NCBI GenBank assembly: GCA_913776045.1
Contig: CAJYOI010000035.1
Location: forward strand, 1-38,027
Reading direction: 5' to 3'
Length of the DNA: 38,027 nt
Source of the DNA: an uncultured Sphingomonas sp.
Lineage (GTDB): Bacteria; Pseudomonadota; Alphaproteobacteria; Sphingomonadales; Sphingomonadaceae
Numbering within the stretch: position 1 is the first letter of the stretch; every line of letters starts with the position of its first letter. The notes below the pieces were generated by a model. That model had not been told where the DNA came from, did no database searches, and worked only from the letters and a program-made list of their open reading frames with translations. Below, piece by piece: positions 17,789 through 29,627 of the stretch. The position numbers were made by a program, and so were the translations under genes.

Positions 17789-18703
17789 CTAGATCCGCTC
17801 GCCGCTAAGACGCTGGCAGACCATGTCGAGCTGGTCGAGCGTCGAATAGTTGAGCGTCAGCGTGCCGCCCTTCTCGCTATGCGCGATACGGATGGTCAGG
17901 CCGAGCAGGTCGCCGAGCTGACGTTCGAGCGCGTTGATGTCGGCGTCGGGCGCGCCGTTCGATGCCGAAGACGACGCCTTGCCCTTGCGCCCCTCGGGCT
18001 TCACCGCGCGAGCGAGCTTTTCGGTTTCGCGCACCGACAGCCCCTCGTCGACGACGCGGCGAGCCAGCGCCACCGGATCGGGCGCGCCGATAAGCGCGCG
18101 GGCGTGGCCCATCTCCAGTTCGCCCGTGACGACCATCGTCCGCACGCCTTCGGGCAGGTCTAGCAGGCGCAACAGGTTCGAGATGTGGCTACGGGACTTG
18201 TCGACCAGCTTACCGAGCACTTCCTGAGTGTGGCCGAACTGGTCGATCAGCCGGCGATAGGCCTCCGCCTCTTCGATCGCGTTGAGGTCGGCGCGCTGGA
18301 TGTTTTCGACCAGCGCGATTTCCATCGTATCGGCGTCGCTCAGCTCGCGGACGATGACCGGCACTTCGTGGAGCCGTGCGCGTTGCGCCGCGCGCCAGCG
18401 GCGTTCGCCGGCGACGATTTGATAGTCGTGGCCGTGCGGGCGCACGACGATCGGCTGGATCAGCCCGCGCTGCGCGATCGAGCGCGAAAGTTCTTCAAGC
18501 TTGTCCTCATCGAAGTGTCGACGCGGCTGCCCTGGGTGCGGTCTCATCGCACTGACCGGGAGCGTGCGGACACCCGAGGGGACCGACCCACCCTCCCCGT
18601 TGACCGGCGCTTCGACCACCGCGTCGCCGAGCAAGGCGCTCAAGCCACGACCAAGACCCGAGCGGGCTTTGCGACCGGCAGGTGCAGGCGTGTCGTCGAT
18701 CAT
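17789..18703 (-). CDS. parB: Chromosome-partitioning protein ParB
   Basis: Binds parS, loads as a CTP-dependent clamp and spreads along origin DNA. It has 304 residues. The N-terminal domain has a Lys/Arg-rich lead (RSGLGRGLSALLGD), then RPHPGQPRRHF, the box motif GERRWRAAQRA and ENIQRADLNAIEEAEAYRRL. The central helix-turn-helix reads VDKSRSHISNLLRLLDLP. The C-terminal dimer domain covers about 250-304. The ATG at 18703 overlaps the parA stop (ATGA), so ParA and ParB are co-translated. Three parS-like sites lie 0.8-3.3 kb upstream within the same operon. Confidence 0.97.
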   Translation of the reverse strand: MIDDTPAPAGRKARSGLGRGLSALLGDAVVEAPVNGEGGSVPSGVRTLPVSAMRPHPGQPRRHFDEDKLEELSRSIAQRGLIQPIVVRPHGHDYQIVAGERRWRAAQRARLHEVPVIVRELSDADTMEIALVENIQRADLNAIEEAEAYRRLIDQFGHTQEVLGKLVDKSRSHISNLLRLLDLPEGVRTMVVTGELEMGHARALIGAPDPVALARRVVDEGLSVRETEKLARAVKPEGRKGKASSSASNGAPDADINALERQLGDLLGLTIRIAHSEKGGTLTLNYSTLDQLDMVCQRLSGERI

Positions 18704-19482
18704 GCGGCGGCCTTGGCGACATTGGGGAGACGAAGGATCAGTTCGCGAGCGAGCGCGATATAGGCTTGCGAGCCCGTGCAGCGGTGATCGTAGATCAGCG
18801 CAGGCAGACCGTGGCTGGGCGCTTCGGACAGGCGGACATTGCGCGGAATGACGGTGTCGAACACGACCTTTCCCAGCACCGCGCGCACGTCGTCCGACAC
18901 CTGGTCGGTCAGGCGATTGCGACGATCGAACATTGTCAACACGACGCCCAGGATCGACAGCCCCGGATTGAAGCGCGAGCGGATGCGCTCGACGGTGCTC
19001 AGCAACTGGCTGAGCCCCTCCAGCGCGAAGAACTCGCACTGCAGCGGCACGAGCAACGCGTGCGCCGCGACCATCGCGTTGATTGTCAACAGCCCGAGCG
19101 AAGGCGGACAGTCGATCAGCACGACGTCCCACCGCGCATCGCTGCGCTGGACGGTGCGGTCGAGCCGGTGGGTACGCGCTTCGAAATCGATCAGCTCGAT
19201 TTCCGCGCCCGACAGGTCGACCGTCGCAGGGACCACGTCGAGGCGCGGGACCTGCGTGGCGATCGCGGCATCGGCCAACTTGCCCTCACCGACCAGCAGG
19301 TCGTAGCTCGACGTGTGCCGATCATTGCGCTTGATGCCCAGACCCGTCGAGGCATTGCCCTGCGGGTCGAGGTCGATCAGCAGCACCCGCGATCCCGTCG
19401 CGGCGAGCGCCGTGCCGACATTGATCGCCGTGGTAGTCTTACCCACCCCGCCCTTCTGATTTGCGATGGCGATGACTTTCAT
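18700..19482 (-). CDS. parA: Chromosome-partitioning ATPase ParA
   Basis: DNA-binding Walker-type ATPase whose gradient moves ParB-parS. It has 260 residues, with no N-terminal helix-turn-helix, so it is the chromosomal type. Deviant Walker A ANQKGGVGKTTTAIN is at 7-21, with the signature Lys in KGGVGKT. Walker A' is LLIDLDPQGNASTGLG and Walker B is VVLIDCPPSLGLLT. The ATG at 19482 overlaps the rsmG stop (ATGA); it opens directly into MKVIAIANQKGG, the standard family start. It is followed by parB with the same kind of overlap. Confidence 0.98.
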   Translation of the reverse strand: MKVIAIANQKGGVGKTTTAINVGTALAATGSRVLLIDLDPQGNASTGLGIKRNDRHTSSYDLLVGEGKLADAAIATQVPRLDVVPATVDLSGAEIELIDFEARTHRLDRTVQRSDARWDVVLIDCPPSLGLLTINAMVAAHALLVPLQCEFFALEGLSQLLSTVERIRSRFNPGLSILGVVLTMFDRRNRLTDQVSDDVRAVLGKVVFDTVIPRNVRLSEAPSHGLPALIYDHRCTGSQAYIALARELILRLPNVAKAAA

Positions 19483-20096
19483 CGCGCGGCCACTCCGCTG
19501 GCGACGACGATGCCCGAATTTGGATCGACGATGCTGTGTTTCACGTGAAACGTACCATGCCACGTCCGACTTGCACTCGCCACTTCCGATTGAGCGCTTT
19601 CGCCTTTCGGCAGAATGAAAACACTCCGCTTCGAGACAAAGCCACGAGATGCGGCGAGCAACGCCTCTAATTTGGCGACGGCCCGCGCAGAGATTACGTC
19701 TGCCATCGCAATGTCGAAGACGCGTTCGGCCTTGGCGTGGATGACTTGGACCTTCGACAGACCGAGCGTATCGGCGGAGCGCTGAAGAAACTCGACACGC
19801 AGTTTGCGCGGCTCGATCAATGTCACCGCTCGCTTGGATAACGCCGCGACCACCAGACCGGGCAGTCCCGCCCCCGCCCCGATATCCACCCAATGCTTCC
19901 AATCAGAGGGCGCATGATCGAGCAATTGCGCAGAATCGACAATATGTCGCGTCCATACCGATGGGACTGTTGCGGCAGAAATCAGATTCTGACGGTCGGC
20001 TTCGGCGAGCAGCAGATCGACATAGTCGGCTAGTCGGTCAAGCGCGGCCGCATCATATCGCTCGGCCAACCAGCGCTTCGCGTCGTCCTTGGTCAT
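19479..20096 (-). CDS. rsmG: 16S rRNA (G527-N7) methyltransferase RsmG (GidB)
   Basis: SAM-dependent methyltransferase acting on 16S rRNA G527; 205 residues. Signature stretches: WTRHIVDSAQLL at 48-59, SAM motif I VDIGAGAGLPG at 70-80, TLIEPRKLRVEFLQR, and ISARAVAKLEALL. It is linked by ATGA overlap to mnmG before it and parA after it. Near its 3' end the sequence encoding TFHVKH is itself a parS-like palindrome (19537-19552), so the protein's C-terminal region carries the imprint of a ParB site. Confidence 0.95.
   Translation of the reverse strand: MTKDDAKRWLAERYDAAALDRLADYVDLLLAEADRQNLISAATVPSVWTRHIVDSAQLLDHAPSDWKHWVDIGAGAGLPGLVVAALSKRAVTLIEPRKLRVEFLQRSADTLGLSKVQVIHAKAERVFDIAMADVISARAVAKLEALLAASRGFVSKRSVFILPKGESAQSEVASASRTWHGTFHVKHSIVDPNSGIVVASGVAAR
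19537..19552. other. parS site 1 (inside rsmG)
   Basis: TGTTTCACGTGAAACG contains the perfect 14-bp palindrome GTTTCACGTGAAAC (19538-19551). It matches the well-known bacterial parS consensus TGTTTCACGTGAAACA at 15 of 16 positions. It lies in the coding end of rsmG, about 60 bp before parA. Confidence 0.92.
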
Positions 20097-21934
20097 GCCG
20101 CCTGCCGTTTCACGTGAAGCAAAATCGCCGATAAGGCGGCGGGAGAAATCCCCCGCACACGCGAAGCATCGTCGAGCGTCGACGGGCGAGACGCGGTCAG
20201 ACGCTCGATCATTTCGTTCGAGAGACCGGGAACGGAACGATAGTCGAGCACCGGTGGCAGCGGCGTCGCAGCGGCCCGGCGACGCTCGGCAACGTCCTGC
20301 GCCTGTCGTTCGAGGTAGGGCGCATAGCGGGCGTCCTCGATCGCTTCGGCTACTGCGTCGTCATCGACCGTCGCGTCGCTTGCCAGCACATGCTCGCGCT
20401 GGACGCCTGGAAAACGCAACCATTCGCGAAAAGATCGCTTCGCGCCATCCGCGCCGACGTTCGCCCCACGTCGCCGCATGTCGTCGGACGACGCAATCGC
20501 AGCGAGCAGCTTGTCGACATGCGATCGGGCCTCACGACGTTCGGAAAGGTGTCGGGAACGCTCGGGTGACAGGCACCCCGCCGCCTCTCCGATTACCGAA
20601 AAACGCGTTTCCGCATTGTCCGCGCGCAGCCACAACCGGTGCTCGGCACGGGCGGTCAGCATCCGATACGGTTCGGTCACCCCCTGTAGGGTGAGGTCGT
20701 CGATCATCACACCCAGATAACTGTCGCTCCGGTCGAGCAGAACCGGCGCCATGTCGCACGCAACGGCTGCTGCGTTCAAACCGGCGACGAGCCCCTGCCC
20801 GGCCGCTTCCTCATAACCCGTCGTTCCGTTGATCTGCCCTGCACAGAATAGTCCCGGTATGGCCCGCGATTGCAGATCGCCGCCGAGCGACCGCGGGTCG
20901 AGATAGTCATACTCGACCGCGTATCCCGGCTCGACGATCCGGCAGTGCTCAAGGCCGGGTATGGACGCGATCATCGCTGCCTGGATATCGTCGGGCAGTG
21001 AAGTCGAAATGCCGTTGGGATAGACCAGCGCATCATCGAGCCCCTCTGGCTCCAGGAAAAGCTGATGCCCTTCGCGGTCGCCGAAGCGGTGCACCTTGTC
21101 CTCGATTGACGGGCAGTAGCGCGGTCCCCCGCCCTCGATCGCGCCGCTGAACAGCGGCGAACGGTCGAGGCCGCTGCGAATGATATCGTGCGTCCGCTGG
21201 GTCGTCCGCGTCACGCCGCAGGCGATCTGCGGGAGCCGAGGGCCACGGGTCATCGGCGACATCGTCCACGCGATGTCGTCGCTCGCCTGCTCTTCCAGCC
21301 GCGCCCAGTCGATCGTCCGACCATCCAGCCGCGGCGGGGTGCCGGTCTTCAAACGACCGAGCGGCAGCCCCAAGGATCGCAGCTGGTGGCCAAGGCGGGT
21401 CGCCGCGCGTTCGTGTACCCGCCCGCCTTCCGCCCGCCATTCCCCGCGGAAGATGCGACCGCCCAGGAAGGTACCCGTCGCGATCACAACGGATCGTGCC
21501 GGCAGTAGACTTCCGTCGCCTAATTCGACGCCTGCCACCGCACCGCCTGCGTCGCATACCAGCGCATCCGCTTCGCCCTCGACGACGGCGATATTGGCTA
21601 AGGCTGCGATCGCCCGCTGGATTGCCCCTGAATAAAGCTTGCGGTCGGCCTGGATGCGCGGCCCCTGCACCGCGACACCCTTGCTGCGGTTGAGCATACG
21701 GTAATGGATCGCGGCGGCATCGGCGGCGCGTGCGATAAGACCATCAAGAGCATCGACCTCGCGCACCAGATGCCCTTTGCCGATCCCGCCGATTGCAGGA
21801 TTGCAGGACATCGCGCCGACCTTCGTGGCATCGAACGTGACGAGAGCGACACGCGCCCCCCGGCGCGCTGCAGCGGCAGCCGCTTCGGTTCCGGCATGAC
21901 CGCCGCCGATAACGATGACATCGAAACTGTTCAC
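20093..21934 (-). CDS. mnmG: tRNA uridine-5-carboxymethylaminomethyl modification enzyme MnmG (GidA)
   Basis: FAD protein that, with MnmE, installs cmnm5U34 on tRNAs. It has 613 residues, standard. The dinucleotide-binding motif IGGGHAGTEAAAAAARRG is at about 9-26. Further family signatures are CNPAIGGIGKGHLVREVDAL, GTFLGGRIFRGEW, LKTGTPPRLDGRTIDW, YCPSIEDKVHRFGDREGHQL and FCAGQINGTTGYEEAAGQGL. It overlaps rsmG by ATGA and lies 58 bp after mnmE. A variant parS lies in its last codons (LLHVKR). Confidence 0.98.
   Translation of the reverse strand: MNSFDVIVIGGGHAGTEAAAAAARRGARVALVTFDATKVGAMSCNPAIGGIGKGHLVREVDALDGLIARAADAAAIHYRMLNRSKGVAVQGPRIQADRKLYSGAIQRAIAALANIAVVEGEADALVCDAGGAVAGVELGDGSLLPARSVVIATGTFLGGRIFRGEWRAEGGRVHERAATRLGHQLRSLGLPLGRLKTGTPPRLDGRTIDWARLEEQASDDIAWTMSPMTRGPRLPQIACGVTRTTQRTHDIIRSGLDRSPLFSGAIEGGGPRYCPSIEDKVHRFGDREGHQLFLEPEGLDDALVYPNGISTSLPDDIQAAMIASIPGLEHCRIVEPGYAVEYDYLDPRSLGGDLQSRAIPGLFCAGQINGTTGYEEAAGQGLVAGLNAAAVACDMAPVLLDRSDSYLGVMIDDLTLQGVTEPYRMLTARAEHRLWLRADNAETRFSVIGEAAGCLSPERSRHLSERREARSHVDKLLAAIASSDDMRRRGANVGADGAKRSFREWLRFPGVQREHVLASDATVDDDAVAEAIEDARYAPYLERQAQDVAERRRAAATPLPPVLDYRSVPGLSNEMIERLTASRPSTLDDASRVRGISPAALSAILLHVKRQAA
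20106..20121. other. parS-like site 2 (3' end of mnmG)
   Basis: CGTTTCACGTGAAGCA: the palindrome has one mismatch (GTTTCACGTGAAGC, 20107-20120) and differs from consensus at two of 16 positions. It overlaps the last coding residues of mnmG, just before rsmG. Confidence 0.75.
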
Positions 21935-27009: not shown

Positions 27010-27465
27010 TCAGAAGGGTTTTACCACCACAAGTATGACGATCAGGATCGCGGCCAGCGCCGGAACTTCGTTGATCAGCCGCAGCTGGCGGCCGGTCAGC
27101 GTCGCGTGACCCGACTGCAGCTTGCGGGCATAGCCGATCGCCCAGCCGTGATAGCCGCTGAGCAGCAGCACGACGAGCAGCTTGGCATGGAGCCACCCCA
27201 GGCCCGGCACGCCGTCGAACAGCCCGGCATTGGCGGCGAGCAACAGCCCGAGCACCCAGACGATGACCAGCGACGGCGTCAGGATCATCCGGCGAAGGAC
27301 GCCCTCGCGCTTCGTCCAGCGCGCTTCTTCCCTTGAATCGCCCAGCCCCTCCTGATGATAGACCAGATAGCGCGGCAGCATGAACAGCCCGGCCATCCAG
27401 AAGATCACGAAGACGATGTGCACCGCCTTCACCCACAGATAGGATTGGCCGAGAAGGTTGGTCAT
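27010..27465 (-). CDS. hemJ: Protoporphyrinogen oxidase HemJ
   Basis: Inner-membrane enzyme that oxidises protoporphyrinogen IX, the penultimate haem step in most alphaproteobacteria. It has 151 residues and four membrane segments. It opens YLWVKAVHIVFVIFWMAGLF with His16, the conserved haem-binding/active residue, then LPRYLVYHQE. WLHAKLLVVLLLSGYHGWAI carries further conserved His and Lys. The ATG at 27465 overlaps the hemE stop (ATGA). The pair hemE-hemJ-rho next to oriC is the usual arrangement in this group. Confidence 0.93.
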   Translation of the reverse strand: MTNLLGQSYLWVKAVHIVFVIFWMAGLFMLPRYLVYHQEGLGDSREEARWTKREGVLRRMILTPSLVIVWVLGLLLAANAGLFDGVPGLGWLHAKLLVVLLLSGYHGWAIGYARKLQSGHATLTGRQLRLINEVPALAAILIVILVVVKPF

Positions 27466-28505
27466 CGCGGCGACCGTACGCGATCGATCAGCTGCTGAAC
27501 ATGCTCGATCGGTGTAAATTGACCGATGCCGTGACCCAGGTTGAAGATGTGCGGTCGGTCGGTGAAGGCGTCCAGGATGCGGTCGATCCCGGCGTCGAGC
27601 GCGTCGCCCCCGGCGAACAGCGCGATCGGATCGAGGTTGCCCTGCACCGGCAGGTCGGTCGGGAGCACGGCGTTCGCCCAGGCGGGATCGACCGTCTCGT
27701 CCAGACCGACCGCATCGGGCCGCACGCCGGCCACGTAATCGACCAGCTTCGCCCCCGATCCCTTGGGGAATCCGATGACCGGCGTACCCGGGCAACGCTG
27801 GTGCAGGGCCGCGACGATGCGGGCGTTGGGGGCGATCACCCAATCCTCGTACTGCGTCGGGCTGAGGCTTCCGGCCCAGCTGTCGAACAGCTGCACCGCC
27901 TCCACGCCATGCGCGATCTGCTGTGCCAGATAGTCGACGGTCAGGTCGACGATCCGGTCGACCAGCGCCGTCATCGCAGCCCGGTCTGCATAGGCGAGCG
28001 TCCGCGCCTCCGCCTGGTCCTTCGAGCCCTGCCCCGCGATCATGTAGGTCGCGACCGTCCAAGGCGATCCTGCAAAGCCGAGGAAGGTGACTTCTGGAGG
28101 CAACGCCGCGGCGACGCGGGTGCAGGTGTCGTAGATCGGCTGGAGCTTGGCGGTATCCGCCAGACCCAGCGCATCGATCGCCGCATGGGTCGTAAGCTTG
28201 GGGGCGAGCCGTGGCCCCTCCCCCGCTTCGAACCACAGGTCCTGGCCCAACGCCCAAGGCACCATCAGGATATCGCTGAACAGGATTGCACCGTCGAAGC
28301 CGAAGCGACGGATCGGCTGGAGCGTAATTTCCGCCGCTGCCTCCGGATCGGTCGCCAGCGCGAGGAACCCGCCCTTCTCTGCCCTCAGCGCGCGATACTC
28401 CGGCAGATAGCGTCCCGCTTGGCGCATCAGCCACATCGGCGGCACCGATGGCATATCCCCCCGAAGCGTCTGGAGGAGCGGTTTCGTAGGCGCAGATCCG
28501 GTCAC
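27462..28505 (-). CDS. hemE: Uroporphyrinogen decarboxylase
   Basis: Converts uroporphyrinogen III to coproporphyrinogen III in the cytoplasm; 347 residues. The N-terminal signature MWLMRQAGRYLPEYR has the conserved Arg/Gln pair. FSDILMVPWALGQ carries the catalytic Asp, GFAGSPWTVATYMI follows, and FNLGHGIGQFTPIEHV is the standard C-terminal motif. The GTG at 28505 is chosen because it opens shortly before KPLLQTLRG; the frame stays open further upstream through the origin but without family similarity. Its leader is the A+T-rich part of oriC, so transcription and replication control may interfere here. Confidence 0.95.
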   Translation of the reverse strand: MTGSAPTKPLLQTLRGDMPSVPPMWLMRQAGRYLPEYRALRAEKGGFLALATDPEAAAEITLQPIRRFGFDGAILFSDILMVPWALGQDLWFEAGEGPRLAPKLTTHAAIDALGLADTAKLQPIYDTCTRVAAALPPEVTFLGFAGSPWTVATYMIAGQGSKDQAEARTLAYADRAAMTALVDRIVDLTVDYLAQQIAHGVEAVQLFDSWAGSLSPTQYEDWVIAPNARIVAALHQRCPGTPVIGFPKGSGAKLVDYVAGVRPDAVGLDETVDPAWANAVLPTDLPVQGNLDPIALFAGGDALDAGIDRILDAFTDRPHIFNLGHGIGQFTPIEHVQQLIDRVRSPR

Positions 28506-28805
28506 ACTCGCGTCCCAACTTAAAAAGAAGAAGAGAATATAAGGGTTGTTGAAGGTTGTTGGCGCGTGGGTAGCGGGGTTTCTTTCCCCGTCCAGACTCT
28601 GCCAACAGATTGACCGGGAAAAAGCGCCGAAAGCCGTGCGATTCGATTCCGCTATCCCCGTTATCCACAGCCTGTGCACCGATCGGCGAATTGTGATGTG
28701 CGTTGTGGATATCGGTGGATGAATCGGCCGGATTTTGTCGGTTTGGTGGCCGGGCCGACTTACGCTATCCGCCGTCCCCATGTTGTCCACAGATCGCTCC
28801 AGCCG
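28506..28805. other. Predicted chromosomal replication origin (oriC)
   Basis: A 300-bp gap between divergent hemE and ppsR, the place of oriC in Caulobacter and other alphaproteobacteria. DnaA-box-like sites: TTATCCACA (28661-28669, perfect, plus), TGTGGATAT (28704-28712, minus, 8 of 9), TTGTCCACA (28783-28791, plus, 8 of 9) and a weak GGTGGATGA (28714-28722, 7 of 9). The stretch 28519-28560 is about 70% A+T, with AAGAAGAAGAGAATATAA and two GGTTGTTG repeats, and would suit unwinding. GANTC methylation sites are at 28595, 28640, 28645 and 28721. A TTAA-N7-TTAA CtrA site was not found. Confidence 0.88.
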
Positions 28806-29627
28806 GTGAAACTGCACCTCCACCTGCTGTCGGACTCCACCGGCGAGACGCTGGAGAATATCGCCAAGGCGGCGCTGGCGCAGTTCGACGACGTCGATAC
28901 CCAGCGCCACTTCTGGCCGATGATCCGCAACGAAGCGCATCTGGAGCGCGTGCTTGCCGAAATCGGCCAGCATCCGGGCCTCGTGCTCTTCACGCTGGTC
29001 AATCCGGCGATCCGCATGATGTTGGAGGACCGCTGCCGCGCGATGGGTTTGCCCGCAGTCGCGCCGCTGGACGGCGTGAACGATGCGCTGTCGGGGCTGC
29101 TCGGGCAGGAAGCGAAGGCGCGGCCGGGCCGCCAGCACATGCTCGATGCGGCCTATTTCGCCCGCGTGGAGGCGATCCAGTGGACGATCGCGCATGACGA
29201 CGGCATCGCGTCGGACGATTGGGAAGAGGCCGATATCGTTCTGGCGGGCGTCAGCCGGTCGTCGAAGACGCCGACGTCGATCTACCTCGCCAACCGCGGA
29301 TACAAGGCGGCGAACATACCCATCGTGGTCGAAAGTCCGCCGCCGGCGATCCTCTATCAGCTGAAGAAGCCGCTGGTGGTCGGGCTGACCACCAGCACCG
29401 ACCGGCTGGTCCAGATCCGCCGCAACCGCCTGCTCTCGCTCAACCAGAAGACCGAGACGGCCTATGTCGAGCAGGAATCGGTCGCGCGCGAAGTCGCCTA
29501 TGCGCGCCGCCTGTTCGCCGACAACGGCTGGCCGGTGATCGACGTCACGCGCCGATCGATCGAGGAAACCGCCGCGGCGATCATCGCGCTGGTCAGCGAA
29601 CGCAATTTGCCGAAGGTGGAGCGATGA
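28806..29627 (+). CDS. Pyruvate, phosphate dikinase/PEP synthase regulatory protein (DUF299)
   Basis: Bifunctional kinase/pyrophosphorylase that switches pyruvate phosphate dikinase or PEP synthase off and on by ADP-dependent phosphorylation; 273 residues. It begins LHLHLLSDSTGETLENIAKA. The P-loop-like GVSRSSKTPTSIYLANRGYK is at about 148-167, then NIPIVVESPPPAI. The start is taken as GTG 28806, straight before the LHLHLLSDSTGET motif. An ATG at 28674 would add 44 residues made from oriC sequence and is rejected. ATGA overlap with maf. The target enzyme is not in the window. Confidence 0.93.
   Translation: MKLHLHLLSDSTGETLENIAKAALAQFDDVDTQRHFWPMIRNEAHLERVLAEIGQHPGLVLFTLVNPAIRMMLEDRCRAMGLPAVAPLDGVNDALSGLLGQEAKARPGRQHMLDAAYFARVEAIQWTIAHDDGIASDDWEEADIVLAGVSRSSKTPTSIYLANRGYKAANIPIVVESPPPAILYQLKKPLVVGLTTSTDRLVQIRRNRLLSLNQKTETAYVEQESVAREVAYARRLFADNGWPVIDVTRRSIEETAAAIIALVSERNLPKVER

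Follow-up and report, generated by a model that had tools for sequence, protein, structure and literature searches.

The hemE–ppsR intergenic region as the very probable chromosomal replication origin of an uncultured Sphingomonas

In Caulobacter crescentus, the chromosomal origin of replication (Cori) is flanked by hemE and CC0001, a member of COG1806, and combines DnaA boxes with an A+T-rich tract (PMC1914354, PMC8959179). Within the sphingomonads, an origin near hemE with several DnaA boxes has already been published for Sphingopyxis granuli TFA and Novosphingobium PP1Y (DoriC), and in the former the gene order is conserved as well and an unwinding element has been suggested (PMC4741004, PMC4059872); the likeness of our locus to these two is one of general layout. 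Here we describe the gap between hemE and ppsR, positions 28506-28805 of a 38,027-nucleotide stretch of DNA (the window), which represents one contig (C35) of the 68-contig, 3.15-Mb draft genome of an uncultured Sphingomonas. This gap is very probably the chromosomal origin (oriC) of the organism. Its location is the one expected for its relatives and the origin is ordinary in kind, a cluster of GANTC sites being the sole less expected feature. The gap and its flanks are as follows:

28506..28805, unstranded: hemE-ppsR intergenic region, proposed oriC, 300 bp
27462..28505, minus strand: hemE, left flank, GTG start at 28505 (TIGR01464, 382.5 bits)
28806..29627, plus strand: ppsR (pyruvate, phosphate dikinase / PEP synthase regulator), right flank, GTG start (NF003742, 325.7 bits)

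The first-pass annotation of this DNA had placed an origin between these coordinates, bordered by the genes known from Caulobacter and with genes pointing mostly away from it, and all three statements hold. The hemE start at 28505 on the minus strand and the ppsR start at 28806 on the plus strand delimit the gap, hemE and COG1806 (ppsR) are the flanks of Cori as well, and, among genes assigned through family search, hemE, rho, mnmE, mnmG, rsmG, parA and parB run leftward, while ppsR, maf, aroE and coaE run rightward. The ppsR reading frame stays open upstream, with alternative starts possible from 28674 onward, and its start was placed at 28806 because the matches of most relatives begin at residue 1 or 2. 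The best segment of PpsR shares 97% identity with that of Sphingomonas sp. Leaf33, which makes it very probable that the DNA comes from a Sphingomonas.

DnaA boxes were compared in an alignment of 81 rows, consisting of the window and the best 80 of 576 confirmed stretches from relatives (L002-L081); the rows are related by descent and their counts are not independent. The following positions were distinguished:

28661..28669, plus strand: DnaA box A, TTATCCACA, at most one mismatch in 54/81 rows
28673..28681, minus strand: box position B, degenerate in this genome (CGGTGCACA, 4 mismatches) but perfect in 30/81 rows
28704..28712, minus strand: DnaA box C, ATATCCACA, at most two mismatches in 81/81 rows and at most one in 50/81
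28714..28722, minus strand: weak box, TCATCCACC, 2 mismatches, position not conserved
28721..28729, plus strand: box position D, no longer a box in this genome (GAATCGGCC), two mismatches or fewer in 37/81 rows, 10 rows gapped
28783..28791, plus strand: DnaA box E, TTGTCCACA, the most strongly conserved, one mismatch or none in 81/81 rows

Spacing among relatives is nearly fixed: counted start to start from A (+), B (-) follows at +12, C (-) at about +43, D (+) at about +60 and E (+) at about +122. From these five positions seen in Sphingomonas relatives, the present genome retains three (A, C and E), B and D having decayed. The initial count of one perfect, two single-mismatch and one weak box therefore stands in its first two parts, the three good boxes lying within 131 bp, whereas the weak box falls off the conserved positions, in poorly conserved columns (about 28712-28722). 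This cluster exceeds chance, as two or more boxes with at most one mismatch inside 131 bp occurred in none of 300 first-order Markov copies of the window. Across the whole draft, 5 boxes are perfect and 123 have no more than one mismatch, counts that are higher for a reversed control pattern (10 and 264), and the gap is the sole box triple inside 200 bp among the 100 of these 123 places that were listed. Box density at this threshold reaches 9.97 per kb in the gaps of 79 of the related loci, compared with 0.08 per kb in their flanks, and two or more boxes are present in 64 of the 79 (the remaining locus, L054, is cut by the end of its own contig and was left out of gap statistics). At least one box was found in 27/29 gaps of L204-L232 and 19/20 of L253-L272, which together form 49 loci of the family, in 20/20 gaps from other families (L233-L252) and in 10/10 from a genus designated g12 (L273-L282); two or more were found in 26, 11, 17 and 4 of these, respectively.

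The A+T-rich stretch reported earlier on the hemE side was confirmed, and it coincides with the predicted stability minimum of the entire contig, according to a nearest-neighbour profile:

28517..28546, unstranded: A+T-rich candidate unwinding element, the least stable 30-mer of the contig

The minima for longer segments fall at the same place, the 50-mer starting at 28512 and the 100-mer at 28515. In relatives, the least stable 30-mer of the gap starts at most 70 bp from hemE in 74/79 loci of L002-L081, 48/49 family loci, 10/10 g12 loci and 20/20 loci from other families. A DnaA-trio is not claimed, the A/G-rich tract at 28520-28546 being situated, by eye, about 115 bp from box A.

Furthermore, chromosome segregation sites are located in the vicinity. 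A genome-wide search allowing up to two mismatches gave three parS-like sites, two of which are found next to parA, parB, rsmG and mnmG, at a distance of 8.7-9.3 kb from where ppsR starts:

19537..19552, unstranded: parS-like site, 1 mismatch
20106..20121, unstranded: parS-like site, 2 mismatches
17789..19902, minus strand: parB open reading frame (17789-19132) and parA open reading frame (18700-19902), from family search

Since the family matches begin well inside these frames, the true parA and parB starts probably do so too. The third site (C7:325-340, 2 mismatches) is near the end of its contig. All seven other Sphingomonas genomes inspected carry a parS-like site 6-10 kb from ppsR (8/8 within 10 kb counting this one), and one of the seven, G175, has an additional site elsewhere.

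Strand polarity was followed in 20-kb stretches sampled from three relatives, H160509 (G001), Leaf33 (G002) and S. echinoides, with plain GC skew sampled at about 10%. As a marker we used the octamer GGGNAGGG, which we take to be the FtsK-orienting sequence. In H160509, it is reverse-dominant in 22/22 samples of one arm and forward-dominant in 18/18 of the other, and the flip occurs between the samples at 2570-2590 and 2600-2620 kb, with the gap at 2603.8 kb; five variant octamers scored 4-15/22 and 9-15/18. Likewise, in Leaf33 the octamer counts are 8 forward and 23 reverse to the left of the locus (10 samples) and 24 and 7 to the right (7 samples), with variation among single samples, and a shallow sampled GC-skew minimum in the 180-299 kb interval agrees weakly with the locus at 236 kb.

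The arrangement itself is widespread. The order hemE-gap-ppsR is present in 79 of the 80 loci L002-L081, L054 being the truncated one, and both genes flank the gap in 40/40 wider loci (L233-L272; 20 represent other families in the order, 20 other genera in the family), which were picked from genomes already having a ppsR match. Of 196 genomes from the order, 176 gave such a match, and 14 of the 20 genomes lacking it belong to g12, where ppsR gave no match in any of the 14 sampled genomes. In the 10 g12 genomes examined, hemE is invariably followed by an origin-like gap of 286-328 bp and then by maf. The simplest reading is that g12 lost ppsR while the origin stayed beside hemE, so that ppsR, although it usually serves with hemE to mark such origins, can apparently disappear without the origin leaving its place. 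As a separate observation, records titled Bacillus, Arthrobacter and Microvirga (L021, L031 and L062) hold hemE-ppsR loci with PpsR identities of 80-83%, and because these loci are of the Sphingomonas type, the titles look wrong.

By analogy with other DnaA-dependent origins, DnaA-ATP would occupy boxes E, C and A, and the resulting complex would spread over the ppsR half of the gap and melt the A+T tract beside hemE. There DnaB could be loaded for bidirectional replication, and ParB bound to the parS-like sites about 9 kb away might then separate the new origins.

The interpretation of the gap as oriC, put forward in the first-pass annotation, is thus supported by a box geometry common to relatives, the stability minimum, the parS-like sites and the polarity flip in the long relative H160509. 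Several observations weigh against it. The far arm boundary in H160509 (near 817 kb) was derived from the same data as the octamer count, and the cumulative GC-skew minimum of that genome falls at a sample near 2.14 Mb, with the locus at 2.60 Mb. In S. echinoides, the corresponding minimum is at a sample near 2.10 Mb and the locus at 2.48 Mb; this genome, a scaffold with N gaps, was ambiguous for both GC skew and the octamer after denser sampling. Sampling thus puts the two minima 0.2-0.46 Mb away from their loci. Inside the window, both skew and octamer counts give a weak signal. A single box at the one-mismatch threshold is all that 15 of the 79 gaps of L002-L081 contain, gaps devoid of such boxes turn up now and then in other genera (2/29 in L204-L232 and 1/20 in L253-L272), and the IHF consensus, searched for as WATCAN4TTR or WATCAN5WTR in consensus form only, has no match in the gap, a difference from Cori. 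In regard to such indicators, GC skew was earlier judged insufficient for several alphaproteobacteria, and an IHF site is described as one of several origin criteria that are not all required (PMC1914354).

It is also conceivable that the gap does no more than drive hemE and ppsR as a divergent promoter under DnaA control, with the origin elsewhere. Conserved blocks other than boxes could serve as promoters, and a pair of DnaA boxes is likewise found upstream of ccrM in this genome. However, the box array, the stability minimum and the parS neighbourhood coincide at the gap, as does the polarity flip in the relative, and in g12, devoid of ppsR, 10/10 loci still have a gap beside hemE that bears one or more boxes; we therefore regard a mere promoter function as very improbable. 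Even less credit is due to an origin next to dnaA on C53 or at a different cluster of DnaA boxes, for instance C19:52420-52471. The C19 cluster combines one perfect and one single-mismatch box inside 52 bp, and 23 of the 123 box places were outside the listing, which leaves room for another cluster. Yet the C19 pair sits immediately upstream of ccrM, just 8/28 relatives have any box at the one-mismatch threshold upstream of ccrM, and a 7-kb stretch around dnaA holds zero boxes, so that such a location is hardly credible.

One of the conserved blocks mentioned above is the following:

28600..28615, unstranded: conserved non-box block, TGCCAACAGATTGACC, from alignment conservation

Part of it, GCCAACA (28601-28607), is mirrored by TGTTGGC at 28557-28563, about 40 bp off. 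The sequence TGCCAACA was found in 66/79 loci of L002-L081, 20/49 family loci and 9/10 g12 loci, and in 0/20 loci from other families. The block could possibly be a hemE promoter or a protein-binding site. A search of the whole window against Rfam at the gathering threshold gave tRNA as the only match.

As to regulation, Cori has moderate G and weak W boxes (PMC4468827), whereas the boxes here are near-consensus. Cori also has five CtrA sites, while in our gap there is no TTAA-N7-TTAA site with 0-1 mismatch, the best one having two mismatches at 28539; the remark made at the outset that CtrA control lacks sequence support is accordingly borne out. Control by CtrA was rejected as a candidate: among 80 relatives, the best site in the 300 bp before ppsR comes to one mismatch in 2 cases, mostly has two (42) or three (35), and in one relative has four. 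The absence of CtrA sites is unremarkable here, since a review sees them in no origins beyond Caulobacter and possibly Rickettsia (PMC4468827); predicted CtrA motifs have been reported for Wolbachia and its kin (PMC1914354). What the gap does contain is a set of GANTC sites, the motif of the methylase CcrM:

28595..28599, unstranded: GANTC (CcrM) site, motif match
28640..28644, unstranded: GANTC site at a conserved position, 78/81 rows
28645..28649, unstranded: GANTC site, 27/81 rows
28721..28725, unstranded: GANTC site, motif match

In the Escherichia coli origin, a methylation motif, GATC, is similarly clustered, under the Dam/SeqA system; here the motif is GANTC and the methylase is CcrM. 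Among the four copies, only the one at 28640-28644 is fixed in position, the others shifting among rows. Four kinds of control served for the enrichment: dinucleotide shuffles (2000 of the window and 20 of each group), a set of seven control motifs, samples of the genomes, and intergenic regions elsewhere. In 79 relatives, GANTC reaches 14.8 per kb in the gap compared with 2.2 per kb in the flanks, and the gaps hold 383 sites compared with 111.5 in shuffles (3.4-fold); in the remaining groups, shuffles are exceeded 4.3-fold by g12, 3.0-fold by the family sample and 1.5-fold by other families. The origins of the three sampled relatives have 11.7, 16.6 and 13.4 sites per kb, while their genome samples have 1.2-1.6 and their other intergenic regions (150-800 bp) 1.9-2.6, with 5/321, 2/159 and 1/120 of the latter matching the density of the origin; this comparison relied on a crude gene finder, by which 18.7% of the H160509 sample is intergenic. 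Altogether, the origins of relatives are about 6-11 times richer in GANTC than flanks, genome samples and other gaps. The enrichment is weakened by a shuffle P of 0.05 for the window taken alone, by the likewise enriched AGNCT (2.5-fold in L002-L081) and by the presence of at least four GANTC in 11 of 1409 other 300-bp intervals of this genome's sample (73 kb, partly selected for DnaA boxes). In the titles and abstract openings consulted, which cover the literature in part, no account of GANTC clustering in sphingomonad origins was found.

CcrM is encoded in this genome at C19:51141-52268 (E 2.8e-153 to the solved CcrMI structure 6pbd). The region upstream of ccrM is also rich in GANTC (3-9 in 600 bp), so that clustering of the motif is not peculiar to the origin. 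In this genome (L082:2270-2507, on C19), that region holds a perfect DnaA box, TTATCCATA 43 bp off and a one-mismatch CtrA-like site; such CtrA-like sites occur upstream of ccrM in 3/28 relatives, and the adjacent gene resembles rnhB by eye. GcrA (PF07750) gave no match in this draft, likely due to an assembly gap, because it is present in 77/80 genomes of the order, including 6/6 others of the genus.

A speculative scenario would be that sphingomonad origins swapped CtrA control for a methylation timer, in which GANTC sites would be hemimethylated after firing until CcrM returns and, via an unknown reader, would impose a block on re-initiation like that of Dam/SeqA. In Agrobacterium, hemimethylation has been suggested to act in a Dam/SeqA-like manner at the second origin, which depends on RepC (PMC11514494). 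We consider such a timer unlikely, because GANTC is over-represented in alphaproteobacterial intergenic DNA generally and is known from Caulobacter origins, loss of CcrM in Caulobacter left initiation control undisturbed (PMC3973325), and at Agrobacterium ori1 depletion or excess of CcrM made no clear difference (PMC11514494).

Our analysis locates the very probable origin in a draft Sphingomonas genome and supplies a testable box architecture for the genus. In addition, the GANTC cluster, found at a DnaA-dependent origin without evident CtrA sites, offers a place where a role of CcrM methylation in initiation may be tested.
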